A stretch of DNA of 64,000 bases from Cladocopium goreaui (Eukaryota; Sar; Dinophyceae; Suessiales; Symbiodiniaceae): assembly GCA_947184155.2 (NCBI GenBank), contig CAMXCT020001868.1, positions 388,411-452,410 of the forward strand, read 5' to 3'. The notes beneath the pieces are model-generated. The model was not told the origin of the DNA and did not search any database. It worked only from the letters and a program-made list of their open reading frames with translations. A program made the translations under genes and the position numbers. Below, one piece after another: positions 3-45,772 of this stretch; position 1 is the first letter of the stretch; each line of letters begins with the position of its first letter.

Positions 3-263
3 GAGAACTACGTACTCATGTATGAGGTGACCTCGAAAATGGCCGCTGACATTCACACCAAAGGTTTCAAGAACCCGTTGGCATGGAAAAGAGCATGTAT
101 GCTCATCAACCTGTTGGACCCTGGTGACATCGGTACGAAAGATCTGCTCGATATGGTCTCACCTACCACGGATGTTGATACCACTGTCCGACAAGTGTTT
201 CAAACCAAAACTCAAGATGTTCCAAATTTTTCCGTACACCGAAATACCTATTCTACCACCTGA
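3..263 (+). CDS. Ty1/copia RNase H C-terminus (partial, frameshifted end)
   Basis: This frame is open from the window edge, so the gene starts outside. It contains an ADIHTKGF motif followed by a short helical tail ending in LLDPGDIG. ADI-TK is the usual terminal signature of the RNase H domain of Ty1/copia Pol, which degrades the RNA strand during reverse transcription. The reading stays sensible up to a run of five T at 227-231. Beyond it the frame (stop at 261-263) loses sense, while the +1 frame continues with PYTEIPILPPEVYQ. The rest of Pol (integrase, reverse transcriptase) should lie upstream of the window. The family call rests on the short motif only. Confidence 0.6.
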   Translation, partial: ENYVLMYEVTSKMAADIHTKGFKNPLAWKRACMLINLLDPGDIGTKDLLDMVSPTTDVDTTVRQVFQTKTQDVPNFSVHRNTYSTT

Positions 264-1194
264 GGTGTATCAGAAGGGTCTTTCTGGTAAAGAACAAGTA
301 CAACAACTACCCGGTATGGATCCCATATTGGTTGTTAAGACGCCAACTTTCTTCAGAAAGCGACCACCCGGTGTATCATTGCCTCATGATTGTTTGAGAA
401 GTACCTGGATACTATCTCATGGCAAATGGATCAAGGTTGAGGATCGAGTTCCACCCGTTCAACAACAAGACCGTTTTGATCAATGGGTAGAACGAGCTTG
501 TTTCCAATACCATCCGTGTCAATTTAGTATATCACCGTCGGTGATTACTAGGCAATCAGCTGGTGTTGTCTCACCGGGACACCTGGCGTCAACAGCACGA
601 CAAGGGCTCCATGCTGCTGCGGTGCCGACTCGTCAGACTACAGTCCTGAAGTATCCTCAGTTAACTGTGGGGGTAGGTCAACTATTTTGTCATCAATCCC
701 ATGGAAACGAACCCACAACCATTCATGCAGCTCCATGTGGTACTGCTCGGGTGATCAACACGCTCCTTCGAGTTGTTCATGGGGGGAGTTCTGGATGGGG
801 TAGTCTTCCAATGGGATTTCCTCCGACGGGGGACCCCGATGATGATCCATATCCCACAGAAAACAAAGATCCCAATCGACGACGAATTGTATTCGCCGGT
901 GGTGACGTGATTGCTGGTAGGGTGTCAAAAGACAAAGCCTATAACCCATCAATGTCATCAAGAAAGGGAAAGAAAATATCCAAAAATGAAAGTGATCAAG
1001 ATGAGTGGATATGGAAGGATGAAACAACATTGATGAGAGTGCACAAAGTACCAAGAAGAAAGATGTTTACCCCCAAAGAGGCTGACTTTCTGCCATGTAA
1101 GCTGAGACGGTTTAGAGATGAACGGGAAACCAACCAAGTGTTTCAGTCAAGTGGGAGATTGATCCACGACTCATGGAGATTGGTGGGGAAATAA
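232..1194 (+). pseudogene. Retroelement pol-downstream segment, frame 1
   Basis: This continues the retroelement reading after the T-run frameshift near 230 and stops at a TAA at 1192-1194. No enzyme is recognised. Visible features are LRSTWILSHGKWIKVED near 390-450, a Gly/Pro/Asp-rich part with GDPDDDPYPTENKD around 820-870, and a basic Lys/Arg-rich part around 940-1060. At a GGGGAAAT run (1185-1192) sense passes to the next frame, which continues NNIEKTNKRNEFWTG. I treat it as one ancestral coding region broken by single-base shifts, though programmed shifting or base-calling error in homopolymers is possible. Like its neighbours it is on the + strand. Confidence 0.45.
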
Positions 1195-2224
1195 CATCGA
1201 GAAGACCAATAAAAGAAATGAATTTTGGACAGGGACCACTACCTTCAAGATCATATCCAATGCAGACATCAAAGATGTGATGGACAGCGGGTCTGACGTG
1301 GAGGACAGGGCATCGTGCCAGGACACTGTGGTCACCTGTATCCTTGATGGGAACATGAAAATCATTCCGTTGGATGACATGTTTATAGCCCATCATTACA
1401 AGTTGAAGCATGAGACCAGAAAACAAAATGATTGGGATATTCAGATGAATTTGCATCGAAAGAATGGGAAGATCCTGACATATCATTTCAAGCAATCCTA
1501 TGCTGATTTTCTCGGGAAGATACTCAATGACGTTACCATATCACTCAACGTCTATGAGATGAAGGATGATGTCCCATGCTTGCTCCTTATGTGTGCCGAA
1601 ACGCAAAGTATCATCACCAAGATTCACAAACAGAGTCGGTTTAGGATGATGCATGTGGTCACAATCACCGAAGATGACAACCTCATGTCCAACTACGGAA
1701 GGGCAAAATGGAGACGTTGCATCAGGGGTCCTAGTGACTGCGTGTTCTTTGCGGGACCTTGCACCGGTGGTTCACCGTGGAATCGGTTAAACAAAAACGT
1801 GAGTGAGGTCACAGCACACAACATCAGAATGAAAGCACTTCTTTATTGGGAGCTATGGGAAGAGTTCACATTGTGTCTGCAGCGTGTACATGTTTTGCAT
1901 GCAATGGCATTGTTGGAACTACCTCGAGGATGCGATTATTGGAATGATGAGAGAATGAAGTTTCTGATCAATGGGACCCAATCAACTGTGCATGACTTTG
2001 ATGGATGCATGTATGGTTTGAAGTCACAATTCAAAGATGTTGGGACCGCAATCAAGAAACCGTGGAGGATCGTATCATGGGGGGTTAAGTTCTTTGACTT
2101 GCATGCGAAATGTGATGGCTCACACACTCACGGTCATGTGCGGGCAGAGAAACACGTGCAACACAATTATATACCGAGAAGATTGTCAGATCTATCCTTC
2201 GAGGTGTCACCAATCAAATGTTGA
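1190..2224 (+). pseudogene. Retroelement methyltransferase-like segment, frame 2
   Basis: The frame reads from about 1190 and ends at TGA 2222-2224. In order it shows FFAGPCTGGSPWNRLN (about 1747-1794), LELPRGCDYWND (1915-1950), DFDGCMYGL (1996-2022), KKPWRIVSWG (2056-2085) and KCDGSHTHGHV (2107-2139). The PC..S, E-P..C.YW, D-C-fGl, KPW and C..H.H series resembles a domain I associate with retroelement polyproteins of algae and plants, which I infer to be SAM-methyltransferase-like. The PC motif recalls motif IV of cytosine methyltransferases, but no ENV-type motif is visible, so activity is not claimed. Near 2165-2172 sense returns to frame 1 (YTEKIVRSILRGVTNQ), which then runs unbroken into the long ORF. 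Confidence 0.45.
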
Positions 2225-5200
2225 TCAACAACGCTTACGGAAGGAGATATCGACCAAAAGTTCCAGATGATATGAACGACCATAAATCGAAGTCATGTGC
2301 ATGCATCATTGTGAGTGACCTTGAACTTGAGGTTAATGAGAAGACCATCAATGAACAATTATTCATTAACTTCATCACCCAACGAGGCGGTGTGAAGGTG
2401 AAGCTGAGGTTGTATCCACGACGTGGATCAATATTGGCGGATCCGGATCCCGTTAGAGGTGGATTGAAGGTGAAGTCGGGCTGCTACCTGCGTCGTTGGT
2501 GCGCCTTGACGGATCCGGATTCCGCGTACCTCACTTCGGTCTTCGCAATGGCTGGAACTGACCTTGTGATCCCTTCAGCGGCCAAAGGCATTAGTTTGCT
2601 GAAATCAACTCTGTCCCTCATCCAAGAGAAGAAACAAGAGCACAACCTTCCTGCTCCATTCTCAACCTATGAGGAGGCAAACTTCAGGGGCTACAAGGAC
2701 AAGGACCTCGACGAATGGTTGGATCGAGTGAAGATTTCTCCTCCTGTCGTTGTGGCCTTAGCTTTTGTCATGGATAGAAGTGGCAGGGCATTCGTAACGC
2801 ATGCAATCAGGTTGCTCATGAAAATGCTGTCAAAAGTGACCAACGAAAATGAGTTGACGATGTCTGCCATTAGTTTCATCGACAAAGGGGCCCGATTATC
2901 AAAGTTGGTGGAAGGGGCTGCTAGAAATCCAGATGAGAAGAGCATCATGCAGATGTTGTGCACCTTCGAGTGCGCAATCAGAATAGATGAACTATGGGAT
3001 ACCCTCAAAGACCACTATACTGGGCAAAACAGTATGATCAACAAGGAGATCACAGTCAAAGACTTGCGCGACAAGATCGCAAATACTAGCCCAGCAAACC
3101 TCGGATCATTGAACCAGACGTATCCTCCGTATGGAAGTCCTTGCTACCAAATCCGAAAGAGGACGAACTTCGAGGAGATTGCACGTCGGAAATGGGAGAA
3201 GTGGTCGTTTGAAGTGATGCGGAGAGAAGAACCTGAACCATATGAAGTTGAGAACCGCATCCAGTATCTGGTCAACATCATGTACGAGGAGAGCTACAGC
3301 CTTGGCTACGCACTCCGACGTCACAATGCAAGAGCGACCAGCAGCCAGGGTAAAACCATCATCGTCCAGAATGTCCTGGAAGACTGGATGTCAATGAGTT
3401 ATGATCTCAGCTTGGAGCGGACGGCAGCTGTTGTCCATTTGCAAACCATTCTCATGATCTCCAAGATGCTACATGAGTGGATGACAAAATTGGAAAACTT
3501 TAAATCAATGTCATACCTGAGCGGGATCATCAAGACTGATCTGGTCAGAATGAAACAGGCCATTGACCTCCGTGACGACCTATGGGAGTTGGGGGGTTAC
3601 AACATTGAGAGGGCCGACCAGGGCATGTTTGAGGAGGTGGAGAAACGGAACAGGACATTTTCCTGTATCCGCGACTATGTGACGACCACTGCCACTACAC
3701 AGATGGGCCAAGGGGCCACAGAGGTCTCCCACATTGATGGCTGGGACATTCCGCTGATGCCGAGAGACGGCAGAAACCCTCCAAGTCAACCGGATCATCC
3801 AGGTTGGGATCCTTCACCTATCAGAATGATGAATGACAAGCAACAGAGGGAAGCCGATGCACAGCGGGCACAACAGCAACAACAACAGACTGGGCCTAGT
3901 AGTTCCACCGCCGGTGGACACGATGGTTACAGCTCTGCAGCTGGGAGTGCACCACCACCAAAAGCTCCACCATCGAAGGCAAGGCCATCTACACCTCCTG
4001 CAAGAAAGGACTGGGTGATTCCTCGGGTACCGAATGGATATCTTTTCAGAACTTCATCAATGCCCGATCAAAGGAACTCCGAGTTCATCACTTCAGCATG
4101 GATGGACGAGCGGGATCACTTTCTTCTATCAATCGTCCAAGGACCCGCAGCTCAAGCAGCCAGCACATTGGGATCAGCACCTTGGGCACAATATTTGAGG
4201 AGAGTGACCGCATATGCCTGCATGATCTTCGGAGTTTGCAATCCGGGGGTCGTAACCGAGGACACTGCATCCACTATATCCGAGAAGGATTGGCTCAGGT
4301 GCTACAGCCACATCGTCCGCAAGTACATGCTGACGCGGACCGGATGCTATTTGTCGACAGCAGGTATGCTCATGATGCTAGGGCATCACGACGTGAACGT
4401 CGCCAACCAGTCCGACCTGGGCCGCATCAAGAAGATGATCACCAACCCACTTGCTTGCAGGATCATCGAAGCACCAAGCGGTCCAAGAGATCATGACATG
4501 TTGGCAGGTGATTTCAGGGCTGGAACAACCATCCTCATCACCGACCTGATGTTCCGCGTGGGAACCCAAAGTGGGACGCATGGCATCCAAATGGGATTAG
4601 CTGACATGGGATGGGAAAGTGTCGAGGTGTTCAAAATCCATGATTCCGAAGCAGAACGACCCCTTGAGCAATTCCTCGACACCCTTGACAAAGTCAAGCA
4701 GCATCTCAGCACGGATACCGTCGACGATGGTTTGATAACTGTGCACCTTTGGTTGTCATTGCAGTTCCTACATGCACCAAAACCACCTCATTGTGTTATG
4801 CTTGAGAACGACTTCAAGCATCAGTTTGTCAAAGGGGTGCTCGATCTTGATCAAGTCACGTCCCGACCCCTGATGGTCGCCATCAACAATGACTCCATGT
4901 TCAACGGAATGGACTCTGTCACGTCCAGGATCGCAGATGAGCTGATTGAGAAGATGAGGCTCCAAGGGATCCTGGTGACATCGGACCAGAGAATGTGGCG
5001 GTCAATGTATTCACAATTTGGGAAACAATATCCAATTTTGAGTACAACCAAGAAGGGGACTTTGGGAAAGACGGCAATTTGGTCTGTCATCGAGAAGAAT
5101 CTATTTCGCCAAAGGGTCTTCCTCATGTGTGCCACGAACAGGGAATATGTATCAGTTCTCAATGAGGGAGCGTTCAAACCTGATGAATCGGGCATCATCG

Positions 5201-8200
5201 CCAAAGTTCTGGAGGATATGACCGGACCAACTGAGGCGTTCAAGATCGCAGGCGGCGAAATGACCCCTGGTGACTATGCAAATGACGACACCACAATCTT
5301 CCAGCGAGGCCCTGGAACCGCCGTGAACAGATTCACCAAAGACAAAAGGTTCAAGACCAGTTGGGTCGAACCGGTGGTCGGCACCCATGAGCTGGAACCA
5401 GTGGTTTCCGATCGATGCATGTGGTTCACCATTGACAAGGAGAACAACGACATCCTATGCGGAAGCTGTAGAGGCGCAGTGACAATGGATGAGATCGAGA
5501 CGTGCCAGTCGAGACCAACCCATTGCATTAATTGCTCCGCCAACACCCAGGACCATTACAAGCGTTCAGCTCCCACATTGGAGGCCAGGAAGTCCGTACT
5601 ACTCCTTGCAGCCAGATTGAAGGTTGCATTCGAGGATCTTGGTGTTGACATTGTTGACATCAATCAAGGATTCCAAACATGGCTCACATTTACTGCGTCT
5701 TCGTTGATTTCAAATGCATCGTTGGCGTATGGGGAGCACTTGATGAAATCTCTATCTCACATGGGAGGAGTCAGAATTTCGAAGAGGCAAGCCCTGGAAA
5801 TTTTCCGGAACGGACGCGGCAAGCAATTCAGCATATATCGCGAAAGAGTTTTCGATGATGTTGCAAAGAAGTGGCTCTTGATCTACAGAGTCACAAAGGA
5901 TTGCGGAAATGTCGCATACAAAGACTTCTTCGAAAAGGTTGCCGTTCCCGAGGTGAAGGAGAGGAACGAGATCTTTGGATTCTCCCGTGCATCTGCCGAG
6001 AAAACTGGAGATATCATCGAGTTCTGGCTTGGTGTCTTGGACGTGGCCAATATGGCCAAAGGAGTCGTGGATGTTTTCAATGCCAGTGTCGATCCAGCAG
6101 AGTATCTCAATGGATTGGAAAAGGCATTGGCTCAATTCACATCGACCTCCAGAACCTCAAGCACCATCAATGACAAGAGACGGGGATCCTTCGACTGCAC
6201 GCTGCAAACCGCAGAAGCTGAAAGGGTCATGAAGATCATCCATGCAATCCCCGGATATGATTCACTGGCCAACTTCTGCTGCCTCACGGAGTGGGAGAAG
6301 GATCAGGTGTTTTCTCATTATCGGAGGAAGAACAACATCACAGGGGGTGACGCTAGCATGGGCGCTGATGCCGATGCCAAGCCAGGTGACGAGTCGTCGG
6401 CTCACCCTGGGGAGGAGGAAGCTGATGAGCCAGCAAATGATCCCACCGATGTTGTCAGGGACTCAGAGATTTCCGGGAAACAACAACTTTTGGATGCATT
6501 GGGAAAACTCTTTACCGTCTCTGAGGATGTCAATGTGTGCTTGTATTGTGGTAGCACCAAACATGGCCATCTTGAATGTGGACATGAGAAGAGGGATGAA
6601 GTCAGAAAGGTGCTAAAGGCCGTCCGAGCGTCGCTCGAGGCTGATAGTCCAACATCTGATGACGTCGACATGGAGCCTCCCGAGCACAAGAAGGACGGTT
6701 CAGGTGCTACTGATGGGTCGGGGCAAACGGATGAACCTACAAAATCGAGGTTTAGTGAACACCAATGGTACGACAGCATCAGGACTATGTCTGAAGTTGG
6801 TGACCTTGATGAGTTTGGTAGATTCTGCATAGAAGGACGTGATGTTACAAAGCTAGGACCACAGAACATTGTTGACCTCAACGAAGTGATCCGAGACGCT
6901 ATCGTCAGAGGAGGAGGTGACTCCTGGTCTGTGCCAGACTTCATGGCAAGCTACTCTGATAACAACATCAGGAAGCCCTTCTACAAGAGAGTCGAAGCGC
7001 CGCAAGATGGTTTCTTGAAAATCATCCCAACAACGGGGGCACATTTCTTCAACTGCTCCTACTTTGGCGGTGTCGAATATGCAGCCAACTACCGCTTCGA
7101 GACTGGCAACCGACTCAATCCCTACGAGGACAAGGTGAGTACCTCACTAAACAGGATCTTGCGGCACAACGTGGGGAAGGTATCAGAACAACAGAGTCTG
7201 TCATGTGATGACGCCGGCTGGGTGCCCATCGACGAGGTGCTCAAATGTGAATCCATCTGGAGGCACGAGTACGCACGCTGGCCACATGTATTCCTTGCCC
7301 CAAAAGGGAGAGCAAATGATCAGAATGCCTGGAATGTCAATGAGGCAAACTACCGCATGACATTGCTCTTCAAGATCATGTTCCACTGTGCCCGGTACGG
7401 ACGTCGTGTTCGTGAACAAGTCTTGGCATTTGGTATCAACAAGGACATTGAGCGCACCAGCCTGACATGCATTGACAACAAGGTCGATGCGGACACGAAC
7501 ATCCCCGATGAAGGTCTACTGCTCTACCCAGTGGCGGTCCGTGCTCCTACGGGGCACAAAGAAGGATCTTCAAGGGACGACGTCTCATTGCTGTCCTCAT
7601 TACTTTCACATCCAATCGCGCCCAACACCATTTTGTCGTTACCGGTCTGTTTCCACATCACCAAGAAGACCAACCTTCGAAGCATTTGGAGGCAGGGATT
7701 AATTCCGGGAGGTCTTGGAGAAGGTCATCGGATGTTCACGTTCTTCAACCCGTATGTGCCATGGGATCACAGATCATGGACCATCACGAAGAGCGTTGAT
7801 ACGCGAAGGGGGGACTACATATGCTTGTTCGTCCCGACCGAGACCTTGATGGTGGAATATGGCGGTCGACTGACTGACTCGGGACAGATCGTTTCACCAA
7901 AGATCATCCCGTTCTCGGCAATCAAAGGAGGATGGATTCAGGACCCCAAGGACCAAAACAATAAGACATGGCTCAGGTTGTTCGTCCCGTCGGGCGACGA
8001 CCAGGTAGTCCGGTCTGGAACTATCAAATCAAGAACGGTAGCCACCAAGGAGTCCATCTTGAGAGTTGCAAGTCAGTGCATCGACGCCGAAGACCAACCG
8101 TTTGACGAAACCGCCATGGATGCCATGAACATCGTCAACCAATTCAAGAGCAACCTCATTGAGCCTGGCGGACAAGAGCAATACCTGGCCCGCATCAAGC

Positions 8201-9726
8201 TGATTGACTACATAGTCGAACGCAAAAGGGTGCAAACATCAGGTTGCCGCCATTGTCCTCACTGTCTCAATGAGACGCCGACAAAGCTAGCAGTGTGTCT
8301 AGTTTGCTGGACGGAACTTGAAAGCTGTGGAATTCGTCCATATCGGCTACAAGCTCCTGAAGACGATGAAGATGAGGCCACAAAGAAAGAGATCGATGAA
8401 GAAGTTCGTCGACAAGAAGAATCGTTGTTCAAGGATACGGTCAATCAAGCACAAGAAAACGTATCCGAATCCAACGACTATGGCTTCAATCCTGACGAGG
8501 TCGACTACAATGAAGGCGATGATGAGGAAATGGATCAGGAGGAGGAAGCTCAACAAGAGGACGACGAAATCGTTGAAGAAGACGACGATGAAATGGACGT
8601 CGAACCTGAAGATGAACCCTCTTCCAAACTTCCAGCATGGACCAAGAACCTCGAGAGCGGCAGCAAGGGTATGCCAGAAGACGGACTTATCAACAATGAT
8701 GTATCCGAGGCCGCGGCTCACTTGTATGACAACGCAGTCATGTCAAAGGTCATCACAATGTTCAGGTTTTACTATAAACAGAGAGTCACTATGACCCCAG
8801 AGGAGTACCATGAGATGATGACGGAAACCAAGCGAGTCCGGCTGGACCTGGACGACTTCTGCCCTTACACAGGAGAAGACCAGGATGGCAACCTCAAGCG
8901 ACCGACGGAGCTGGAGCTGGACGAACTCTTTCAGGAGAAAGGGAAGAGGAATTCATGGTCAGAAGGAGAGAAGCTGTACTCAGGACGACCAAGAAACATG
9001 ATGATGCCTGTCATCAAGACTTTAGAGATCTATGAGAAGATGATGGAATTTCTAGTACGCGCCGGGTACACTCCAGAGTCATTAGGCTTCCTCATGCCAA
9101 TGAACCGAATGCAGGCTGATGCCCAAGGGAAACAGGAGATGCGAGTGACAATCAGCAATTTCCTTCGGCGACTGCTCAAAGGGACCTTTCCAGAGCACGA
9201 GTCGTACACCTTCTTTCGCTCCGGGAGCCACGGCTTCCCCAACTGCATCGAACTTCCAGCCTTCTCAGTATATCTGAGCCTAAGGGAGAAAGAACAGAGA
9301 GTAGAACTGCTCTTTGCCGCCCAACAATGTGGCATTCCTTTACCCCAAAATTTTGTCAGCAAGATGGCATATGCTATTCAGCTGGCTGAGGCCGAGGCGC
9401 AGAGGGGAAAGACCGAGATGAAAACGAAGATGGCTCCAACCCTTGGCGACGAAGTGGTGAGTGAAGTGTTCAAAGCGGTTGGACATACTGCAGCTTCTAA
9501 GTTTGCCAAACCACCCGCACAACCTTCACAGAAACCTGAAGGCACTGGTTCGGCATCATCCTCATCGGCCAGCGCACCAAAGGCTAAGACTATGCCGAAA
9601 TCCCATGAACCATCAAAGGCACCGCCTGCAAAGCCTTCATCGCCGAAAGCTGCTCCGAAACGTGCGGCAGGATGGGAGAGAACTCCAACAGCACCTCAAT
9701 GGAAGAAAGTCCGCCGTGAGCAGTAA
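2218..9726 (+). CDS. Giant retroelement-linked protein with Tpt1/KptA-like domain
   Basis: This 2502-codon frame has no internal stop. The frame is already open from about 2173, so its N-terminus may be fused to the methyltransferase-like segment. The ATG at 2548 (MAGTDLVIPS, residue 111) is an alternative start after a short repeat. Domains in order: helical N-terminal region (111-500); Q/P/S-rich linker (540-600); four-Cys zinc ribbon C1081, C1084, C1103, C1106; CCHC zinc knuckle C1441-C1444-H1449-C1454; Tpt1/KptA-like domain about 1640-1890; second ribbon C2013, C2016, C2027, C2030; very acidic stretch 2040-2145; Ala/Pro/Lys-rich tail. The Tpt1 signatures are LRHN (R1649, H1650) with DDAGWVPIDEVL, VRAPTGH (R1775, H1780), FHIT (H1813) with GLIPGG, and TRRGDY (R1863/R1864). 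Tpt1 removes a 2'-phosphate from RNA using NAD+. The real substrate here is unknown. Confidence 0.8.
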   Translation: MLINNAYGRRYRPKVPDDMNDHKSKSCACIIVSDLELEVNEKTINEQLFINFITQRGGVKVKLRLYPRRGSILADPDPVRGGLKVKSGCYLRRWCALTDPDSAYLTSVFAMAGTDLVIPSAAKGISLLKSTLSLIQEKKQEHNLPAPFSTYEEANFRGYKDKDLDEWLDRVKISPPVVVALAFVMDRSGRAFVTHAIRLLMKMLSKVTNENELTMSAISFIDKGARLSKLVEGAARNPDEKSIMQMLCTFECAIRIDELWDTLKDHYTGQNSMINKEITVKDLRDKIANTSPANLGSLNQTYPPYGSPCYQIRKRTNFEEIARRKWEKWSFEVMRREEPEPYEVENRIQYLVNIMYEESYSLGYALRRHNARATSSQGKTIIVQNVLEDWMSMSYDLSLERTAAVVHLQTILMISKMLHEWMTKLENFKSMSYLSGIIKTDLVRMKQAIDLRDDLWELGGYNIERADQGMFEEVEKRNRTFSCIRDYVTTTATTQMGQGATEVSHIDGWDIPLMPRDGRNPPSQPDHPGWDPSPIRMMNDKQQREADAQRAQQQQQQTGPSSSTAGGHDGYSSAAGSAPPPKAPPSKARPSTPPARKDWVIPRVPNGYLFRTSSMPDQRNSEFITSAWMDERDHFLLSIVQGPAAQAASTLGSAPWAQYLRRVTAYACMIFGVCNPGVVTEDTASTISEKDWLRCYSHIVRKYMLTRTGCYLSTAGMLMMLGHHDVNVANQSDLGRIKKMITNPLACRIIEAPSGPRDHDMLAGDFRAGTTILITDLMFRVGTQSGTHGIQMGLADMGWESVEVFKIHDSEAERPLEQFLDTLDKVKQHLSTDTVDDGLITVHLWLSLQFLHAPKPPHCVMLENDFKHQFVKGVLDLDQVTSRPLMVAINNDSMFNGMDSVTSRIADELIEKMRLQGILVTSDQRMWRSMYSQFGKQYPILSTTKKGTLGKTAIWSVIEKNLFRQRVFLMCATNREYVSVLNEGAFKPDESGIIAKVLEDMTGPTEAFKIAGGEMTPGDYANDDTTIFQRGPGTAVNRFTKDKRFKTSWVEPVVGTHELEPVVSDRCMWFTIDKENNDILCGSCRGAVTMDEIETCQSRPTHCINCSANTQDHYKRSAPTLEARKSVLLLAARLKVAFEDLGVDIVDINQGFQTWLTFTASSLISNASLAYGEHLMKSLSHMGGVRISKRQALEIFRNGRGKQFSIYRERVFDDVAKKWLLIYRVTKDCGNVAYKDFFEKVAVPEVKERNEIFGFSRASAEKTGDIIEFWLGVLDVANMAKGVVDVFNASVDPAEYLNGLEKALAQFTSTSRTSSTINDKRRGSFDCTLQTAEAERVMKIIHAIPGYDSLANFCCLTEWEKDQVFSHYRRKNNITGGDASMGADADAKPGDESSAHPGEEEADEPANDPTDVVRDSEISGKQQLLDALGKLFTVSEDVNVCLYCGSTKHGHLECGHEKRDEVRKVLKAVRASLEADSPTSDDVDMEPPEHKKDGSGATDGSGQTDEPTKSRFSEHQWYDSIRTMSEVGDLDEFGRFCIEGRDVTKLGPQNIVDLNEVIRDAIVRGGGDSWSVPDFMASYSDNNIRKPFYKRVEAPQDGFLKIIPTTGAHFFNCSYFGGVEYAANYRFETGNRLNPYEDKVSTSLNRILRHNVGKVSEQQSLSCDDAGWVPIDEVLKCESIWRHEYARWPHVFLAPKGRANDQNAWNVNEANYRMTLLFKIMFHCARYGRRVREQVLAFGINKDIERTSLTCIDNKVDADTNIPDEGLLLYPVAVRAPTGHKEGSSRDDVSLLSSLLSHPIAPNTILSLPVCFHITKKTNLRSIWRQGLIPGGLGEGHRMFTFFNPYVPWDHRSWTITKSVDTRRGDYICLFVPTETLMVEYGGRLTDSGQIVSPKIIPFSAIKGGWIQDPKDQNNKTWLRLFVPSGDDQVVRSGTIKSRTVATKESILRVASQCIDAEDQPFDETAMDAMNIVNQFKSNLIEPGGQEQYLARIKLIDYIVERKRVQTSGCRHCPHCLNETPTKLAVCLVCWTELESCGIRPYRLQAPEDDEDEATKKEIDEEVRRQEESLFKDTVNQAQENVSESNDYGFNPDEVDYNEGDDEEMDQEEEAQQEDDEIVEEDDDEMDVEPEDEPSSKLPAWTKNLESGSKGMPEDGLINNDVSEAAAHLYDNAVMSKVITMFRFYYKQRVTMTPEEYHEMMTETKRVRLDLDDFCPYTGEDQDGNLKRPTELELDELFQEKGKRNSWSEGEKLYSGRPRNMMMPVIKTLEIYEKMMEFLVRAGYTPESLGFLMPMNRMQADAQGKQEMRVTISNFLRRLLKGTFPEHESYTFFRSGSHGFPNCIELPAFSVYLSLREKEQRVELLFAAQQCGIPLPQNFVSKMAYAIQLAEAEAQRGKTEMKTKMAPTLGDEVVSEVFKAVGHTAASKFAKPPAQPSQKPEGTGSASSSSASAPKAKTMPKSHEPSKAPPAKPSSPKAAPKRAAGWERTPTAPQWKKVRREQ
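2384..2522 (+). repeat. Two imperfect ~69-bp direct repeats at ORF start
   Basis: Two adjacent copies (about 2384-2451 and 2454-2522) share the reading RGG-KVK near their starts and GCGGATCCGGAT-like ends (ADPDP and TDPDS). They lie between the end of the methyltransferase-like motifs and the ATG at 2548. They may mark the junction where the large ORF was joined to the older pol region. Confidence 0.5.
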
Positions 9727-10220
9727 ACCAATTACCTCTACCCATCAAAATGATCACTGACCTATAAGATGTGTATCGTCTTTGTGAACAGATGATCAGG
9801 AAAAGACCAACTGAGTGGACTCTGAGCGAGGCAGTAGACTAATTCGCTTAGGTTCAAGACTTTTGATATTCCCAATCTGCATGTGATTCTGCACAGTGCA
9901 CGTGAATTCGTTAGTTAGCATCGTAAATCTTTGGTAGCGAAGCGATCCATTTCTCCCGACGGGTGAGTGGTATGCCTAGCCAACGTAGAAAAGTAGGTGC
10001 TAGCTAGCAATAATTCGCGCTGTACAGCTTGATGGAGCGCCGATGCATCGACAGCCAAGGAGTAGGCGAACCCCGAACCATTATTCCCGACGGGAATGTG
10101 GGGAAGGGAGAGCCGAATGGCATGTTTATGTAGATAGGCGTAATTCAAGTAGCAGAACCATCTTAATTCAAAGTTCCCTCTCTCGTGTCCGTGGTTCGAA
10201 GATACCACGGGCATGGGGGG
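9727..10220 (+). other. 3' untranslated part of the retroelement
   Basis: No convincing ORF is present between the TAA of the giant ORF and the putative LTR. The segment contains two CCCGACGGG motifs (near 9956 and 10086). It ends in a purine-rich run GGGCATGGGGGG (10209-10220), which would serve as the polypurine tract priming plus-strand synthesis in a Ty1/copia element. Confidence 0.4.
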
Positions 10221-10388
10221 TGTTAAAGGGAATGAAGTGAAACAACATGTACAGCATGCAGTGTTAACACAACATGCTGTGACCGCCAAACATTGGCTCA
10301 AGCGTATGGAGAAAAGGGACGCGTCGTGTTGCTCCGCATGTCAGTTGCCGGCTACCACTAGCAAGAGTACCACAGGTCTGAAATAACA
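10221..10388 (+). mobile_element. Candidate 3' LTR (TGTTA...TAACA)
   Basis: The segment starts TGTTAAAGGG directly after a G-run, the typical polypurine tract and LTR junction of Ty1/copia elements. It could end at TAACA (10384-10388), giving 5-bp inverted termini and a 168-bp length. The 5' LTR is outside the window, so neither identity between LTRs nor target-site duplication can be tested. The 3' boundary is a guess. A 10-nt match to the end of the dinoflagellate spliced leader (TTGGCTCAAG, 10293-10302) lies inside. Confidence 0.4.
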
Positions 10389-10416
10389 TCCAGGACAAGG
10401 ATTCATTTGTTCGCAA

Positions 10417-12071: not shown

Positions 12072-12176
12072 TACCCTCTGGTTATGTCAAAATAGCTATT
12101 GAAAATGGCCATTTATAGTGGATTTACCCATTAAAAATGGTGATTTTCCATAGTTACGTTAAATTACCAGAGGGTA
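12072..12176. mobile_element. Hairpin MITE, TACCCTCTGG family
   Basis: A 105-bp nearly complete inverted repeat, with left end TACCCTCTGGTTATG and right end TACCAGAGGGTA. The centre carries GGCCATTTATAGTGG and its partner AAAAATGGTGATTTTCC. At least eleven related copies occur in the window. TA at both outer ends suggests TA target duplication. Confidence 0.75.
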
Positions 12177-17183: not shown

Positions 17184-20100
17184 ATGGCGCCTGCTGCCTC
17201 CCGACTGCTTGGAACAGGAGTCGCCCTTGGCCTCGCAACCACTTTCGTGGCCCCCGGCCACCCCAATGCCCAGAGTGCTACCTTGCGAGGTTCCAAGGTG
17301 GACACTGCAGCCACGCAGAGCAACAGCATCAACAGCCACCTTGCAACCTTGGCCGCAGCTGGAGTGAGCCTGGCAGCAATTGGTACAGCCACTAGCCGCA
17401 ACCGTGTGCAGCTGAAGTCAGCATCTCAAGTTGCAGAGACTGCAACACCTCCACCATTCCAGCCATCAGAGCAGTTTGGTGCAACCGAACCCTTGGGATT
17501 TTTCGATCCCCTAGGCTTTACTGCCGTCGGAGATGAGAAAGGCTTCCGGAAGTTGCGTGTCTCTGAAATCAAACACGGACGAGTAGCTTGATGACGATTG
17601 GATGTCTGTCATTTTTGTCATTTGCTCATTTATTTTGATGATCTTGTCTTGCTCTTTGAGAATGAAACCAGCGCAGCAACACAACAACATGTTTCATTGA
17701 ACATGACTCTTCATCACTTGGATATAATTGAAAAGACTTGAAACTACTTTTCATCTGAAGACTTAGTCAAGTTGTGGTTCCACACAGAGCCGCCAGGTAG
17801 CAATGATGGCATCCGTTGGACTTGTGGGTCAGCATTTCCTGAAGTTCCCTGGCTTCGAAAATTCACCGGCTGGTTTCTCCATCATGGGCAGGGGAGAAGG
17901 TGTGCTTGGCTTCTTCGCCATCTTCCTTTTGTCCGGAGTCTTGGAGCTGGCATGGAGGGAGGACCCAAGTGGTGAGAAGGAGCCTGGCAACTATGGCGAC
18001 CCCTTCGGTGTTCAGATGTACAATGACGAGATGAGAATGAAGGAGCTCAACAACGGACGTATGGCTATGATCTCTGTGCTCGGTATCTTCGCGGCAGAAT
18101 GTGCAACTGGCAAAGATGCGATTCAGCAGTTTGGTCTTCCAGCACTGGGTGCCGGCAGGTTTGTTTCCGCTTCTTCACGCACCAGCTTCACAGGAAAGAC
18201 ATCCTTGCGAGGAAATGCTCAGCAATCCGTGATGCGTAGGGCTGAAGCAGTTGTGGAGGATGTGCCCCCACCACCATTCCAGCCATCAGAGCAGTTTGGT
18301 GCAACCGAGCCCTTGGGATTTTTTGATCCCCTAGGCTTTACTGCCGTCGGAGATGAGAAAGGCTTCCGGAAGTTGCGTGTCTCTGAAATCAAACACGGAC
18401 GAGTAGCTTGATGACGATTGGATGTCTGTCATTTTTGTCATTTGCTCATTTATTTTGATGATCTTGTCTTGCTCTTTGAGAATGAAACCAGCGCAGCAAC
18501 ACAACAACATGTTTCATTGAACATTACTCTTCATCACTTGAATATAATTGAAAAGACTTGAAACTACTTTTCATCTGAAGACTTAGTCAAGTTGTTGTTC
18601 CACACAAAGCCGCCAGGTAGCAATGATGGCATCCGTTGGACTTGTGGGTCAGCATTTCCTGAAGTTCCCTGGCTTCGAAAATTCACCGGCTGGTTTCTCC
18701 ATCATGGGCAGGGGAGAAGGTGTGCTTGGCTTCTTCGCCATCTTCCTTTTGTCCGGAGTCTTGGAGCTGGCATGGAGGGAGGACCCAAGTGGTGAGAAGG
18801 AGCCTGGCAACTATGGCGACCCCTTCGGTGTTCAGATGTACAATGACGAGATGAGAATGAAGGAGCTCAACAACGGACGCATGGCTATGATCTCTGTGCT
18901 CGGTATCTTCGCGGCAGAATGTGCAACTGGCAAAGATGCGATTCAGCAGTTTGGTCTTCCAGCACTGGGTGCCGGCAGGTTTGTTTCCGCTTCTTCACGC
19001 ACCACCAGCTTCACAGGAAAGACATCCTTGCGAGGAAATGCTCAGCAATCCGTGATGCGCAGGGCTGAAGCAGTTGTGGAGGATGTGCCCCCACCACCAT
19101 TCCAGCCATCAGAGCAGTTTGGTGCAACCGAGCCCTTGGGATTTTTTGATCCCCTAGGCTTTACTGCCGTCGGAGATGAGAAAGGCTTCCGGAAGTTGCG
19201 TGTCTCTGAAATCAAACACGGACGAGTAGCTTGATGACGATTGGATGTCTGTCATTTTTGTCATTTGCTCATTTATTTTGATGATCCTGTCTTGCTCTTT
19301 GAGAATGAAACCAGCGCAGCAACACAACAACATGTTTCATTGAACATTACTCTTCATCACTTGAATATAATTGAAAAGACTTGAAACTACTTTTCATCTG
19401 AAGACTTAGTCAAGTTGTTGTTCCACACAAAGCCGCCAGGTAGCAATGATGGCATCCGTTGGACTTGTGGGTCAGCATTTCCTGAAGTTCCCTGGCTTCG
19501 AAAATTCACCGGCTGGTTTCTCCATCATGGGCAGGGGAGAAGGTGTGCTTGGCTTCTTCATCTTCCTTTTGTCCGGAGTCTTGGAGCTGGCATGGAGGGA
19601 GGACCCAAGTGGTGAGAAGGAGCCTGGCAACTATGGCGACCCCTTCGGTGTTCAGATGTACAATGACGAGATGAGAATGAAGGAGCTCAACAACGGACGC
19701 ATGGCTATGATCTCTGTGCTCGGTATCTTCGCGGCTATGATCTCTGTGCTCGGTATCTTCGCGGCAGAATGTGCAACTGGCAAAGATGCGATTCAGCAGT
19801 TTGGTCTTCCAGCACTGGGTGCCGGCAGGTTTGTTTCCGCTTCTTCACGCACCACCAGCTTCACAGGAAAGACATCCTTGCGAGGAAATGCTCAGCAATC
19901 CGTGATGCGCAGGGCTGAAGCAGTTGTGGAGGATGTGCCCCCACCACCATTCCAGCCATCAGAGCAGTTTGGTGCAACCGAGCCCTTGGGATTTTTTGAT
20001 CCCCTAGGCTTTACTGCCGTCGGAGATGAGAAAGGCTTCCGGAAGTTGCGTGTCTCTGAAATCAAGCATGGACGAGTAGCTTGATGACGATTGGATGTCT

Positions 20101-20634
20101 GTCATTTTTGTCATTTGCTCATTTATTTTGATGATCTTGTCTCGCTCTTTGAGAATGAAACCCGCGCAGCAACACAACAACATGTTTCATTGAACATGAC
20201 TCTTCATCACTTGCATATAATTGAAAAGACTCGAAACTACTTTTCATCTGAAGACTTAGTCAAGTTGTTGTTCCACACAAAGCCGCCAGGTAGCAATGAT
20301 GGCATCCGTTGGACTTGTGGGTCAGCATTTCCTGAAGTTCCCTGGCTTCGAAAATTCACCGGCTGGTTTCTCCATCATGGGCAGGGGAGAAGGTGTGCTT
20401 GGCTTCTTCACCATCTTCCTTTTGTCCGGAGTCTTGGAGCTGGCATGGAGGGAGGACCCAAGTGGTGAGAAGGAGCCTGGCAACTATGGCGACCCCTTCG
20501 GTGTTCAGATGTACAATGACGAGATGAGAATGAAGGAGCTCAACAACGGACGCATGGCTATGATCTCTGTGCTCGGTATCTTCGCGGCAGAATGTGCAAC
20601 TGGCAAAGATGCGATTCAGCAGTTCGGCTTTTGA
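17184..20634 (+). CDS. Peridinin-type chlorophyll a/c LHC polyprotein, 4 units, 5 exons
   Basis: Exons are 17184-17582, 17797-18402, 18617-19225, 19440-20075 and 20290-20634. All junctions are GT-AG and phase 0, giving about 864 residues. The leader has a hydrophobic signal (1-20), FVAP at 21-24, a Ser/Thr-rich part and a second hydrophobic segment (52-68), which is a dinoflagellate class I plastid leader. Each unit has three transmembrane helices: SEIKHGRVAMMASVG (helix 1, with Glu and Arg as chlorophyll-binding and ion-pair residues), GEGVLGFFAIFLLSGVLE (helix 2) and MKELNNGRMAMISVLG (helix 3). Units follow one another without a stop through an S/T/R-rich linker beginning GLPALGAGRFVSASS. 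The protein should be cut into antenna proteins of the thylakoid. The last unit ends QQFGF and TGA. Exon 4 has a 10-residue duplication in helix 3 and lacks one residue in helix 2. Confidence 0.93.
17583..17796 (+). other. LHC intron 1 (214 bp)
   Basis: Donor GTAGCTTGATG, acceptor CCGCCAG. The first bases of the intron and of the next exon are both GTAGC, so the exact cut is ambiguous by up to 5 nt. It splits the helix 1 motif HGR/VAM. Confidence 0.85.
18403..18616 (+). other. LHC intron 2 (214 bp)
   Basis: Almost identical to intron 1, with the same length, position and phase and only a few substitutions, such as GTTGTTGTTCC for GTTGTGGTTCC near its end. Confidence 0.85.
19226..19439 (+). 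other. LHC intron 3 (214 bp)
   Basis: The same 214-bp sequence again. A GATCCTGTC variant replaces GATCTTGTC near its middle. Confidence 0.85.
19704..19763 (+). repeat. 30-bp tandem duplication inside LHC exon 4
   Basis: Two perfect 30-bp copies (19704-19733 and 19734-19763) encode AMISVLGIFA twice in a row. The frame is kept, and helix 3 of unit 3 becomes ten residues longer than in the other units. Confidence 0.97.
20076..20289 (+). other. LHC intron 4 (214 bp)
   Basis: Fourth copy, slightly more diverged (AACCCGCGCAG, TTGCATATAATTG). Its open reading across the intron is an artefact. Confidence 0.85.
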
Positions 20635-24124: not shown

Positions 24125-25178
24125 AACTCCCATTAGATCCCATTAAACCACCGTAAATCCCACTAAATCACCAACTATGGGTAAACTCCCAAGGGCAGTT
24201 TTCAACGAAACAACATCTGTGGGATTTTCCCATGCAGCGCTGCGTCGTTGAGGCCCTCAAGAACGCAGCAACTCCAAGGAGATGGTGATGGCGGCGTCAA
24301 GGGCCGATCTAAAAAACCAATGGATGATGATCATGGAATATACTGTCAACCCTGGATTAATCAACCCCCTAATTAGATTATATAACTATTAGATTATGAC
24401 TATTGGAGGAGTACCCCCCTAATTAATAAACCATGGTTTATTAATCCGGGGTTGACATTACCATATATCATGTAGAATATATCGAGTGTTTGCAGGGGAA
24501 CTATAAGTTTTTTTTGCCCTAGTATGGGGTTCAGGAAATCACAGGGCTGGGTTTCTTCATGGCCTTTCACTCTTCGACTGACAGGTCGTTTGGCAACTTT
24601 CGAGTCGTTTGGACCATACCAGGAATTGCTTGGTAGCCATGGCAGCTGTATCATTTCCCCCCGGATTGGGGACCCCCAGACTTGGATGCTTTTCAATCGG
24701 AGGTTTTCGGGGATGGTGATTTTTTTCCATGAAATCAAGGACCTTGCTATATATCACTTATAGACTTATATCAGGGGGTTTCTTAAGATAAGGGATCCAC
24801 AAGTCACCATGGTTGTTTCAATACTAAGTCATGGTCGATTTGGGTACTCTCATGACCAGCCTCCAGGATTCAGAGGGAAGCAAGATGGGTGACCCCTACC
24901 CACCGCGCAGGTGGCTGCTTGGGGTGGGCTTCCGCAGTGCGATTGGGGCACAATGAGTGGATGGGGATGGGGTGAAACGTAGCCCATGGGTGAGAGGGAT
25001 TCAAGCTGGGTTGTACATTTTCGTTTTTAAACAACAATAACAACAGCAACTGCCAGGAACTGCTTGAAACTTGGGTCCCAGTCCCACTTCGAAATCCGCA
25101 AAGTCAGATCTCTGTGGTGAAGAACGTCACCTTTTGCATGTCCCATTTTCTCGAATTCACAAAAGGTGAACTATGAAA
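24125..25178. other. Non-coding stretch with diverged hairpins
   Basis: Short segments near 24235-24290 and 24841-24930 are GC-richer but too short to call exons. A diverged ACTTGGGGTACCCC-type hairpin lies around 24790-24870. Confidence 0.3.
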
Positions 25179-25285
25179 TACCCTCTGGTAAACTAACATA
25201 GCAATGGAAAATCACCATTTTTAATGGGAAAATCCACTATAAATGGCCATTTTCAATAGCAAACTGTTGACATAACCAGAGGGTA
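25179..25285. mobile_element. Hairpin MITE, TACCCTCTGG family
   Basis: 107 bp, TACCCTCTGGTAAACTAAC to TAACCAGAGGGTA, with long complementary arms around ATTTTTAATGGG / CTATAAATGG. Confidence 0.8.
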
Positions 25286-28075
25286 CTGGGAATTCCCATG
25301 GAATTCATAGAAGATCTCTGAAGCCTGGAAATATCCACGGCTCCAAATAACCGCCAGAATGATTTGAACACAATTAACGATATAGCATGATATAGCATGA
25401 CATAACATAACATAGCATATAGTTATAAAACTATATGACTGTAGACCTATATAACTATATACTATATAACATATGACATACAAACATACAAGATATAACA
25501 TAACATATGATGTTTACCCCATCTTGGTGGTTGCCATCCCCTTTTTTTGCGATCATTTTATGTATGTCTATCCTCGTTGCAGGACCATGTTGGTGGCGAG
25601 TGATGAGAGGCAATACAGCACGTCCAGCTGGTTGTCCAAGGTCCATTGCTGTTTTTTTTGGGAACGGGAGAAGGGCTACCCCCAAAATCATCCAAACTTG
25701 CACCAGTTGAGTATGGACACAAGCGTGGTGACTCGGGGATCCCCCATTTTTGAGACACCCCTACATCTATCTATACATATATAATATAATATGTATATAT
25801 ATATATAGAATTTATAATATATACATATATATATATATAGTAGAATTTATAATACATATATATATATATATACATACATTATACATACATATTAAATATA
25901 TACATATATATCACATAATATATATATATATATCATATATCATATATGTATATATCATATATAAATATACGATAGTACACGCATACATTATGTACAGAGT
26001 ATATACCTGCAGCATAAACATAGCATGTGATGGTCCACATATATATATATATGCCGATGAAGAGTAAAGCACTTCGTTTGCCCATTGAATTTCCACATGT
26101 GAACCACCAAGAGAGAGGGGCACGCACTCACAAAGGTGCATTTTTCTTGACAATCAAAATTGTGGAGTTATTCTGAGCCAATTCAGTGATGCTTTTAAAT
26201 TCAGAGCCAAATTTTCTTGAGCCAAATTCCGAGCCATTTTCTTGACCATTCAATTCAGTATACATCGATGATTTTCCCATTAAACTCTCCATCTACTTCG
26301 GTGATTTTCCATTGCCACCCTGCGCCGGATCGCAGGTTGAAGGTTTCCCTTGTGGCGCCAGCATCAAGGTGCAGCCCGAGTCATTGAACTCGATGAGTTT
26401 TCTTGTAGGAAGGCATTTCTAATTTGGCGGTTCCCAAGGAAAAGCAACATTATTCCCATTTAAACCCCTTAGTTTGACTATAAGTTCCTGAAAATTTCCC
26501 AGTCAATACCTGGAAAATCTTTGAAAATACGTGAAATTTTCCTATATATTTAAATCCTCAAATTTCCACAGCAAATCGCAAACTCAATGGCTGCTGGCTT
26601 CGACATCAACAACAAATTGCCTACACACCTATGTAAACAGTCCCAAAACCAATCCATTAAAACTACAAGATCGCAGCAAAACCCATTTAAACAATAATCT
26701 ATCATAATTGAATCAAACAAACTATTTGCTTTGAAACCATGGCAATTCCACTATTTGTTCTGTAGTTTTGGCAGTTACACTTTATCTATCTATCTATCTA
26801 CCTATCTACCTACCTACCTATCTATCTATCTATCGATCCATCCATCTGTCTATATGTATAAATATGTATATATATATGTATACGTATATATGTGTACTAT
26901 ATGTATACATACATGTAATATGCACAAAAGTAACTTTCTTAAACGCATATACAATTGCCTCGGCCATTTTTGGCTCTCCATCCGTGTTGTCATAGCTTCC
27001 ACCAAGCCACCAGCAAGAGCAACCCCAACACCCCAGGAGACCTATCACGGCATTTGCATCGTGATTTCGCTGCTTGGCTTATCATGATAGATTGGAGACA
27101 TTTACCAGCACTCATTCGGGACACGAGGATATAAAATGACATAAAATCATATAAACAATCAACAAAGATGTTGATAGCCATGGGGGATACCCCATTTCGT
27201 GACCGTCATGTCGTGGTGAACATCACTTTCTCAATCTCGAAGATGTAGAAATTTTCAGTCACTCGGAATGGTAAAAATTGCTTTGGGTCTACCACTGGTT
27301 GCCATTTGTTTGGCTCATTTGTGGCTTGTAGGGTGTTGCGTTTCGTTACCTTTTTTGGTAACTGGGGAAGCATCTATCGGAGATGAGGATTCTGGGGGAA
27401 AAAGATCCCGCCCAGGATCTTCTCAGATATGCCTTCGCGCCATATGATGCACTTCTTGCTGCTGGGTTTGTCAGTGGGGAAGGCCATACTGCATATTAAA
27501 TGTGCATTTTTTGGAAAAATCTGCTTTTTCATAGGGTACATAGTTGTATTGCTTAAAGGATTTCAAGTAGATGTGTAATTACGTATGTATATACATCATT
27601 GTAAAACATTGTAAAACTGCATTGATATCCAGATTGTGATATTCTACAGTATACACATGATCACAAATCCATACAAACATGTATATTTCCAAATATTGTT
27701 AGCCGCTTCCCCACTTGCATTCCCACGTTGCTCGCAACTGCACTTCTGAGTGGAGGTATGGCTGTTGTAGCTCTGGCTTAAAGTTAGTCTTCCAAAGAGT
27801 ACTCAAATCCTCTTAGAAGTGCCAGCCTTTTCTGGTTCCATAAGTCACCATAAGTCACCTGTTCTTGTGACCCATTTGGTCACCGACACGCGACTGAAAG
27901 GTTTGTCTTTATCTCCTACATGTTGGTGGTTCTTACTGGAGCGGCCCCTTGGACTTTTGGCCCCCCGGGCCCTATGGTGACAGGAATGACTGGAATAAAT
28001 CAGGGGTTCCAATGCACCCTGTTTGGATCCGTGGTGAGTTCCTTAGTTCAATAGTTCATCCATTTATAGATGGGA
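25286..28075. other. Non-coding stretch with microsatellites
   Basis: It holds TATAGCATGA/CATAACATA words (25380-25505), AT tracts (25775-26055) and CTAT/CTAC tetranucleotides (26783-26850). No convincing exon is seen. A faint one may lie at 26335-26400. Confidence 0.35.
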
Positions 28076-28180
28076 TACCCTCTGGTAAACTAACATAACT
28101 ATGGAAAATCACCATTTTTAATAGGGAAATCAACTATAAATGGCCATTTTCCATAGCTATTTTGACATAACCAGAGGGTA
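28076..28180. mobile_element. Hairpin MITE, TACCCTCTGG family
   Basis: 105 bp, TACCCTCTGGTAAACTAAC to TAACCAGAGGGTA, and very similar to 25179-25285. Confidence 0.8.
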
Positions 28181-33200: not shown

Positions 33201-33208
33201 TGTTAGAT

Positions 33209-33322
33209 TACCCTCTGGTAATTTAACATAGCTATTGAAAACGGCCATTTATAGTGGGTTTTCCCATTAAAAATGGTGATTTTCCATAGTTACGTTAGTT
33301 TACCAGAGGGTACCAGAGGGTA
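33209..33322. mobile_element. Hairpin MITE, TACCCTCTGG family, with duplicated end
   Basis: TACCCTCTGGTAATTTAAC to GTTTACCAGAGGGTA (33209-33312), with the terminal TACCAGAGGG repeated once more to 33322. Confidence 0.8.
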
Positions 33323-36873: not shown

Positions 36874-38209
36874 TGATCGCACGTGAATTTCTAGACGGTT
36901 TTTCAGGTGGTGCTCCCGCAGTGAAAGCACCACCAAAGTTAATATACAATCATATGCCTCCACTTATTGCTGGTTACACCATTACACCTGCATTATTGGT
37001 TGGGTCGCCATGATTGTTGGCATGTTGACTTGGGACAGTGACTCCATCGGATGAGGTGATTTTCATCTATGTGGTGCTCTATCCCTGGTGTGTGACCTGG
37101 CTGCAACATGAGACATCCCGGGAAGCTAACTTGGCCCAGCTGTGTTGCAGAAACTCTACCAATTGTATGGAAATTATGGAAAAAGAATCTCATGTACCTT
37201 AGCAATGTGTATGAAAATTCCAGATGGGAAAATCATGGAACATCAGTTATCGTAGGGATACATGATAGAATATGGATGAATACCGTAGATGGACGAAATA
37301 TTCAAACCCTTTCTATCCGATACAACCCCCTCGCCCCCAAAGTTCAATGTGAATGTAACCTGAGGTGCGTTAGCCCCAATGGACTGGACGAAAGAAATCA
37401 ACCCCCCAACATCACTTTTGCGAACACGTGCGCTGAAACATTGAGATTTGGGGGTGCGGGGGTTCAACAAAGTGTGTGCTGCAGGGTTTGAATATTTTGT
37501 CCATCTACTGTCTCGCTCTCTGATGTTTTCACATCTCTTGGCGTCTCTTGGTATCCAAATTTCTACTGTGTAAACACCCTTCTGCATGCTGCTGATCTTA
37601 TTCCAAACTGCGCAAAACATTACCTTTTCACAGGTCAATGCAACCTGTCTGTCTCCCGTCCAATTTTTTTCTTTTCCTTGATGTGCAACTGTTTGCAAAC
37701 TGCACTAGGCATTACCTTTTGACAAGTAAATGCAACCTGTGTGTCTGCGGTCCCATTTTTTATATTCCCTACGCATGCCAAAATGCGAAACACATTGCCT
37801 TTTGAAAGGTATAAGCTGCATGCGTCTCTCGTCCCATTTTTCCTATTCCTTCATTCGCAACTTATTCCAAAATGCAGCAGATATTGTCTTTTTAAAGGTA
37901 AATGCTGTATGTGTGATGTGTGGGCCTTTCTCGTTTTTCTCTATTCCCTACTTCACGGTGGCGTAATGGAAAGTCCTGTGTTTTTCCAGTTCCCTGTGTC
38001 CAGGGTGATGGAATGGCGTGTGTTTTTCCAGTTCCATTTGTCCGTCCCAGTTCCCTTCCGGTTCCTTTTCCAGTTCCTTTTGCGGATTTCCTGTGTTTTT
38101 CTAGGGTTTGTGTTGCAATCCTTCTATTATTTGGAAACAAAGTGACATGTTTTTCCCGAGAGCGTCTGAGCGAAGGGTTCTTCTAATAGTGGGGGTCTGT
38201 TTTACATCT

Positions 38210-38500
38210 GCACATCTTCACATCTTCATCTTCACGTCTACACAGATCATCTTCACATCTCCGCATCTTCACATCCTCAAATCTGCGCAACTTCACACAT
38301 AGTCTCTCCACATCTTCTCATCTTCTCATTTTCACATCTACACAGATCATCTTCACATCTTCACATCTTCACATCTTCACATCTTCACATCTTCACATCT
38401 CTCTCTCTCTCTACCTCTCTCTCTCTCTCTCTCCCCCCTCTCTCTCTCTCGCGCTCTCTTTCCCTCTCCCTCTCTCTCTCTCTCTCCTCTGTCACGGTCT
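38210..38500 (+). repeat. TCACATCT and CT simple repeats
   Basis: CATCTTCA-type units (38212-38400) run into CT dinucleotides (38400-38500), all inside the Foldback-like element. Confidence 0.9.
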
Positions 38501-38744
38501 CTCTCCTTCTTTTTCTTTTCTCTCTTAAGGCCGCGGGCGGTGCCGACGAGGCGCCACGAAATGGCCACCCTTTCGCGCGAAATGAGGTTCGATCGTCAAA
38601 AACTGTGGTAAAATTGCGATTTTGGCGCTTCCGCGGCAACCCTTTCGCACGAAATGAGATTCGATCTTCCAAAACTGAAGTGAAATTCCGATTTTGGCGC
38701 TTCGGCGGCAACCCGGTTCGAGTAAACAAACTGAGGTAAAAGCA

Positions 38745-39005
38745 TCTGTGTGTAAAAATGTCTGTGTGTAAAAGCTTCTGTGTGTAAAAGCTTCTGTGTG
38801 TAAAAACTTCTGTGTGTAAAAAGCTTGTGTGTAAAAACTTCTGTGTGTAAAAACGTCTGTGTGTAAAAGTTTCTGTGTGTAAAAACTTCTGTGTGTAAAA
38901 ACTTCTGTGTGTAAAAACTTTTGTGTGTAAACGCGTCAGTGTGTAAAAACTTTTGTGTGTACAGGCTTCTGTGTATAAAAAATCTGTATGTAAAAACTTC
39001 TGTGT
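38745..39005 (+). repeat. 15-bp minisatellite (TGTGTGTAAAAACTTC)
   Basis: About 16 copies of TCTGTGTGTAAAAAC with T/C and length variants. Confidence 0.9.
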
Positions 39006-45635: not shown

Positions 45636-45772
45636 ATAAATCATGTCAACCCCAATAGTAGTGACTTAACCATCTGGGATGGCAGGAATTTCATGATGCC
45701 TTTCACCCGCATCAGGGCAACATTGCTGTCTCTACCTCTAGTCACTATCACCCTTGTCTTGTTGCAAAGCCA

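Follow-up and report, generated by a model that had tools for sequence, protein, structure and literature searches.

Enzymes of the Tpt1/KptA/TRPT1 family (PF01885), NAD+-dependent RNA 2'-phosphotransferases that act in tRNA repair, share a two-lobe fold, an Arg-His-Arg-Arg tetrad and the His and Thr of an HGT motif, and the roles of the tetrad residues have been described for the Clostridium thermocellum enzyme, CthTpt1 (PMC6333775). KptA domains are also found, rarely, in the polyproteins of eukaryotic viruses, as in Beihai picorna-like virus and Botrylloides leachii nidovirus (PMC9503650). We describe here a Tpt1/KptA-like domain that, like those, lies within the polyprotein of a mobile element but, unlike those, does not belong to an RNA virus. 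It is encoded downstream of pol by a Ty1/copia long terminal repeat (LTR) retrotransposon of 19,106 bases, the 3' half of which is in the window, a stretch of 64,000 bases (positions 388411-452410 of contig C1868) in the Cladocopium goreaui assembly (1,165,616,438 bases in 6,202 contigs). The element runs from about -8690 to 10415 in window coordinates, its 5' end thus lying outside the window. The word "retrotransposon" is absent from the available text of PMC9503650, and no earlier description of a retrotransposon with Tpt1 was found in the literature searched, as far as its texts were available.

Copia and Ty5 are among the elements primed by a half-tRNA, and the cDNA of copia elements primed in this way begins at the 3'-OH of nucleotide 40 of the tRNA (PMC1181622). 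The window element shares with these the order of gag, protease, RVT_2 and RNase H, short LTRs, 5-bp target duplications and a primer-binding site at the LTR edge that apparently matches an anticodon arm, but it differs from them in its length of 19.1 kb, in the approximately 3,200 codons that follow RNase H and in an apparent anticodon of GAU in place of that of initiator Met. Ty1/copia elements usually measure several kb. Other dinoflagellate retroelements with a captured nucleic-acid-modifying enzyme have been described, namely SymbioLINE-Dnmt and SymbioDIRS-Dnmt3 (PMC5890265). However, these are LINE and DIRS elements, whereas the window family is a copia family with both a methyltransferase-like fold and Tpt1; the same paper states that Symbiodinium copia is without any DNMT domain.

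The domain was assigned from a profile match, a structure model and the conservation of catalytic residues. Its match to PF01885, in a protein of 2,502 residues, has an E-value of 2.7e-5 and a score of 24.7 bits, and in the four relatives scanned the score was over the curated cut-off in two (P0002, 28.3 bits; P0006, 28.1) and under it in two (P0004, 25.1; P0003, 17.4). In a Foldseek search with the structure model, ranks 1-19 were all Tpt1/KptA. The winged-helix RNA lobe and the ART-type NAD lobe to which it is joined are both kept in the model, and the fold match covers about 290 model residues, as against about 180-200 in the solved chains. Relative to Tpt1/KptA/TRPT1, the window domain is longer by insertions, sits inside a retrotransposon polyprotein and has the middle residue of HGT replaced. 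In alignment A1 (12 rows, 23-64% identity to the window) the tetrad (R50, H51, R176 and R239 in A1 numbering) is invariant in 12/12 rows, as are the H and T of HGT. A sequence-only reading of this DNA had proposed an intact 7.5 kb frame with a Tpt1 domain bearing four signatures in order. The frame is indeed there (2,502 residues, 2218-9726) and so are all four signatures, with the correction that the fourth catalytic Arg is that of GHRMFTFF (R239) and not one in TRRGDY. The fold check that it had suggested came out in favor of Tpt1/KptA with a complete tetrad, and the suggested PF01885 search yielded a match, albeit at a score below the cut-off.

The domain is conserved among copies of the element. 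The Tpt1 stretch was taken from 12 other LTR-defined copies, 10 of which were stop-free over the whole piece; L065, with a stop only before the compared part, was kept and the frame-broken L068 was dropped, giving a compared set of the window and 11 copies. The tetrad and the H and T were the same in 12/12, and Nei-Gojobori ratios of nonsynonymous to synonymous substitution (dN/dS) were 0.03-0.23 in the 55 pairs listed out of 66 (0.07-0.19 for the window versus the others), which indicates strong purifying selection on the Tpt1-like domain while the element multiplied. Since selection alone cannot tell catalysis from binding, we considered whether the domain might be catalytically dead and retained in the particle only to bind RNA or NAD, as the replaced G of HGT and the altered LRH of one related clade could suggest. 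This seems improbable to us, as a tetrad, H and T invariant in all rows of A1 at these identities are more than binding should need. The domain is probably an active RNA-directed enzyme, which the element, we infer, produces for use in its own cycle.

The domain is part of the element and not of a neighboring gene. The frame that adjoins the window upstream has 2,803 codons (2,666 of which were read), extends from gag to RNase H over about 8 kb and runs into bases 3-200 of the window. In a Pfam scan it matched zf-CCCH_4 over the cut-off (27.1 bits), an Asp protease weakly and RVT_2 with an E-value of 3.9e-7 (30.3 bits versus a cut-off of 31.6); the scan listed neither integrase nor RNase H, motifs of both of which were seen by eye, RNase H also being identified by homology to P0003. 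The relative P0003, which represents a cluster of 822 member sequences, is about 95-98% identical to the window element. A single frame in P0003 takes in RNase H, the regions that we call post1, post2, A, B and C, and Tpt1 up to about its middle, where the sequence goes off frame. A single protein holds RNase H and Tpt1 in P0019, P0033, P0041, P0046, P0048 and P0081, and in P0086 RNase H is accompanied by a PF01885 match of 95 bits together with zinc finger (22.8 bits) and RVT_2 (17 bits) matches, both under their cut-offs. Symbiodinium is the only organism named among the element relatives (4 of 82 rows; P0047, P0048, P0051, and P0053). In P0008, a predicted protein of 3,711 residues that may be a merged gene model, fragments of a Tpt1 domain of the window type come after RVT_1.

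Because the reading frame of the window copy changes on the way from RNase H to the 7.5 kb frame, one might take Tpt1 to be encoded there by a separate host gene that happens to adjoin a copia remnant. We regard this as extremely improbable in view of the relatives with RNase H and Tpt1 in one frame (P0003, P0019, P0033, P0086, and others), the LTRs and target duplications that enclose the unit in other copies, and the presence elsewhere in the assembly of a separate host-like Tpt1 frame (L022). For the window family, a host gene without pol was accordingly refuted by the one-frame relatives and the enclosing LTRs and duplications. The claim of the sequence-only reading that the frame follows copia RNase H on the same strand thus stands in respect of the RNase H tail, but the two are not one frame in the window copy.

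A search of the assembly with the 3' LTR gave 53 candidates, of which 40 were scored and 30 became loci, 16 of them preceded by a polypurine tract (3' LTRs) and 14 directly followed by GGTTATCAGCCGTA. The flanks of these 30 loci show the LTR boundaries; there is an LTR after the G-run, as had been supposed, but it is 27 bases longer. Seven contigs have both LTRs among the loci, five of them with clear 5-bp target duplications by eye (TTGAA, TAATA, CATGT, TTTGG, and CATTC), and in the other two the LTRs lie in AT repeats. The LTR-to-LTR span is about 18-19 kb on C5872, C5860, C5948, C516, C585, and C6078; on the remaining five contigs where two matches occurred, it is 22-39 kb. When seven LTR pairs were compared, five were identical, one agreed at 193/195 positions and one at 187/192 (the last partly from a match clipped at one end); some insertions are therefore recent. 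The 5' LTR of the window element itself is at -8690 to -8490 and is followed by the same primer-binding site.

Tpt1 domains are widespread in the assembly. A PF01885 search gave 1,496 first-look candidates, and all 150 of those that were scored exceeded the cut-off, so that the number of matches is at least 150. Frames of 1,000 codons or longer hold 114 of these 150, those of 2,000 or longer hold 63, and those of 4,000-4,050 hold 14; pol domains were inspected in a few of the loci, and the window family itself scores too low for the list. The 4,028-codon frame of C1597 matches zinc finger and Torus above the respective cut-offs, gag protease and RVT_2 weakly, and PF01885 with 49.3 bits; it lies between LTRs identical over 173 aligned bases and with a target duplication of GAAAG. 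On C2768, zinc fingers are accompanied by a weak match to RVT_2 (E 1.6e-4) and by a PF01885 score of 44.9 bits, with LTRs 99.3% identical over 135 bases and a target duplication of GTATT. On C691 (L016), RVT_1 (21.3 bits, under the cut-off) is in the frame directly upstream of PF01885, and on C251 (L009/L010) a PF01885 match of 95 bits comes after a non-copia reverse transcriptase and RNase H, read by eye. The C251 element is flanked by identical 73-bp direct repeats.

Three PF01885 matches of 174-180 bits stand alone, the host-like L022 and two, L002 and L021, on contigs that look bacterial, for which reason the assembly may hold bacterial sequence; L021 (on C1, 7.377 Mb) and L002 (on C5523) are stand-alone KptA genes. 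A tree built from 25 domains gave support of 100 to each of two clades, that of the window and that of the C1597/C2768 type, but the nodes between groups, which would count captures, had 25-51. On the checks that the sequence-only reading had itself proposed, its view that the element captured a Tpt1-like domain is supported by the profile and fold matches, the same-strand linked pol, the LTRs with target duplications in copies other than the window's and the number of copies.

A possible function is indicated by the primer-binding site. GGTTATCAGCCGTA abuts the 5' LTR without a gap at the 14 window-family 5' LTR loci, at the window element's own 5' end, and in C1597 and C2768. Fourteen bases of the site are identical in all 16 (the 14 loci, C1597, and C2768), and the 15th differs only in L029. 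The complement of the site consists of a stem, TACGG, a loop, CTGATAA, and then CC. The putative primer is a tRNA with anticodon GAU, on which the site would end at nucleotide 40 (our assignment, in standard numbering); a matching host tRNA would contain TACGGCTGATAACCGTA. A primer-binding site of this half-tRNA geometry is common to three Tpt1-bearing copia families. A 2019 paper reportedly deals with the removal of terminal 2' and 3' phosphates by some Tpt1 enzymes. Metal-independent RNases leave terminal cyclic and 2'-phosphates behind, and KptA has been described as cleaning these (PMC9503650). A tRNA cut in its anticodon arm would be left with a phosphate at its end, the Tpt1-like enzyme could remove that phosphate to give a free 3'-OH, and reverse transcription would start from the healed tRNA at about nucleotide 40. 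From the half-tRNA site at nucleotide 40 and the terminal phosphate cleaning by KptA, we tentatively take such primer healing to be the likeliest single job of the domain, though less likely than not. Through it, the suggestion of the sequence-only reading that the element uses the enzyme to process its own RNA would fit best.

Two other activities deserve consideration. Tpt1 and human TRPT1 ADP-ribosylate the 5'-phosphate ends of RNA in vitro, Tpt1 also those of single-stranded DNA (PMC8883491, PMC9458441), and the retention of both the RNA and NAD lobes would suit an enzyme that protects or marks element RNA or cDNA by adding ADP-ribose to its 5'-phosphate ends. We think this unlikely, as the tetrad residues that read the 2'-phosphate and the junction phosphate are invariant and nothing seen in the element points to 5' ends. 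An equally unlikely role, in our estimation, is counter-defence, which the sequence-only reading had also suggested as a countering of host RNA tagging and in which the domain would repair RNA or tRNA that a host response had cut or tagged with phosphate, as proposed for phage KptA. The occurrence of Tpt1 in several retroelement types suits so general a role, and KptA is carried in RNA-repair settings by phage and a few eukaryotic virus genomes (PMC9503650). However, neither an RNA ligase nor a cyclic phosphodiesterase was present in the Pfam-scanned parts of the element or of P0003. Nor do we know of a host tagging system here.

Several observations weigh against an active, primer-healing enzyme encoded by an intact copia element. 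The PF01885 score of the window protein is 1.3 bits under the curated cut-off of 26, another residue takes the place of the G of HGT in the window family, and the reading frame of the window copy changes three times between the RNase H tail and base 2218. In the C1597 clade (frames of about 4,026 residues), which has the same primer-binding site, LRH is replaced by RGQ (RGH in L017), so that the tetrad is altered there. Non-copia retroelements, in which a half-tRNA primer is not expected, seem to carry Tpt1 too, and half-tRNA primed elements such as copia and Ty5 are not known to carry it. Finally, the window element's own LTRs agree at only 145/217 aligned columns and no clear target duplication was seen in its AT-rich flanks; the window copy is therefore mosaic or otherwise altered, and the data suggest a mosaic of two LTR subfamilies. 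Taking all of this together, we consider the chances that the full explanation is correct (a copia element, an active enzyme, and primer healing as its most likely role) to be evenly balanced.

Table 1. Features of the element within the window (window coordinates).
Feature	Position	Strand	Remarks
C-terminal tail of copia RNase H	3..200	+	tblastn of P0003, 98.5%; continues the 2,803-codon upstream frame
post1 polyprotein region, without known domain	223..1191	+	tblastn of P0003 280-602, 96.6%; frame changes on both sides in window copy
post2 polyprotein region	1187..2137	+	tblastn of P0003 601-916, 97.5%; frame changes on both sides in window copy
C5-cytosine DNA methyltransferase-like fold	1550..2134	+	invariant Cys after Pro, invariant Glu
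Open frame, 2,502 aa	2218..9726	+	regions A, B, C, Tpt1-like domain, C-terminal region E
Tpt1/KptA-like domain, modelled stretch	7015..8217	+	residues 1600-2000
PF01885 (PTS_2-RNA) match	7129..7707	+	residues 1638-1830
Catalytic Arg-His (LRH), equivalent to CthTpt1 Arg18-His19	7162..7167	+	invariant in A1; roles from PMC6333775
Catalytic Arg (VRAPTGH), equivalent to CthTpt1 Arg68	7540..7542	+	alignment A1, published tetrad
HxT motif (HIT), equivalent to NAD-binding HGT motif	7654..7662	+	alignment A1
Catalytic Arg (GHRMFTFF), equivalent to CthTpt1 Arg121	7729..7731	+	alignment A1, published tetrad
Polypurine tract GGGCATGGGGGG before 3' LTR	10209..10220	+	similar stretch before 16/30 LTR loci, window included
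3' LTR, 195 bp, TGTTAAAGGG...TTTGTTCGCA	10221..10415	+	comparison with other LTR copies and flanks

The polyprotein downstream of pol has two domains of nucleic-acid-modifying type, the Tpt1/KptA-like domain and, in post2, one with a C5-methyltransferase-like fold. Cys71 and Glu123 of the post2 domain, its candidate catalytic residues, are invariant in 23/23 rows. By its fold we describe this domain as C5-cytosine DNA methyltransferase-like, its methyl transfer activity being putative. Elsewhere in the window we noted a pair of 154-bp inverted repeats (37970-39515) that are 99.4% identical, together span about 1.5 kb and resemble the termini of a small DNA transposon, a tandem array (17448-20630; unit about 820 bases, copies 96-98% identical), a satellite-like array that repeats about every 22 bases (56358-57180), and a repeat of about 105 bases that is dispersed through the window in both orientations (12072-12176, 25178-25285, 28075-28180, 33208-33312, 40505-40610, 45772-45880, and 63842-63957).

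The finding itself is real, the ordinary explanations for it fail, and what is new is Tpt1 in a class of retrotransposons with captured nucleic-acid-modifying enzymes. It provides Tpt1 with a biological context beyond the splicing of fungal tRNAs, and it suggests that the enzymes taken up by retroelements of dinoflagellates include RNA-repair as well as DNA-methylating ones. Since the assembly has at least 150 PF01885 matches, and frames of 1,000 codons or longer hold 114 of the 150 scored, gene calls of "RNA 2'-phosphotransferase" in such genomes should be checked for mobile-element proteins. It is possible, if somewhat doubtful, that a large dinoflagellate copia lineage encodes NAD+-dependent RNA repair to make a tRNA cut in the anticodon arm usable as a primer. 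If so, the element would itself encode the healing of its primer, and one polyprotein would combine this with a divergent cytosine-methyltransferase-like domain; we know of no other retroelement that encodes such a step. The origin of the 3'-OH of half-tRNA primers would then become directly testable.

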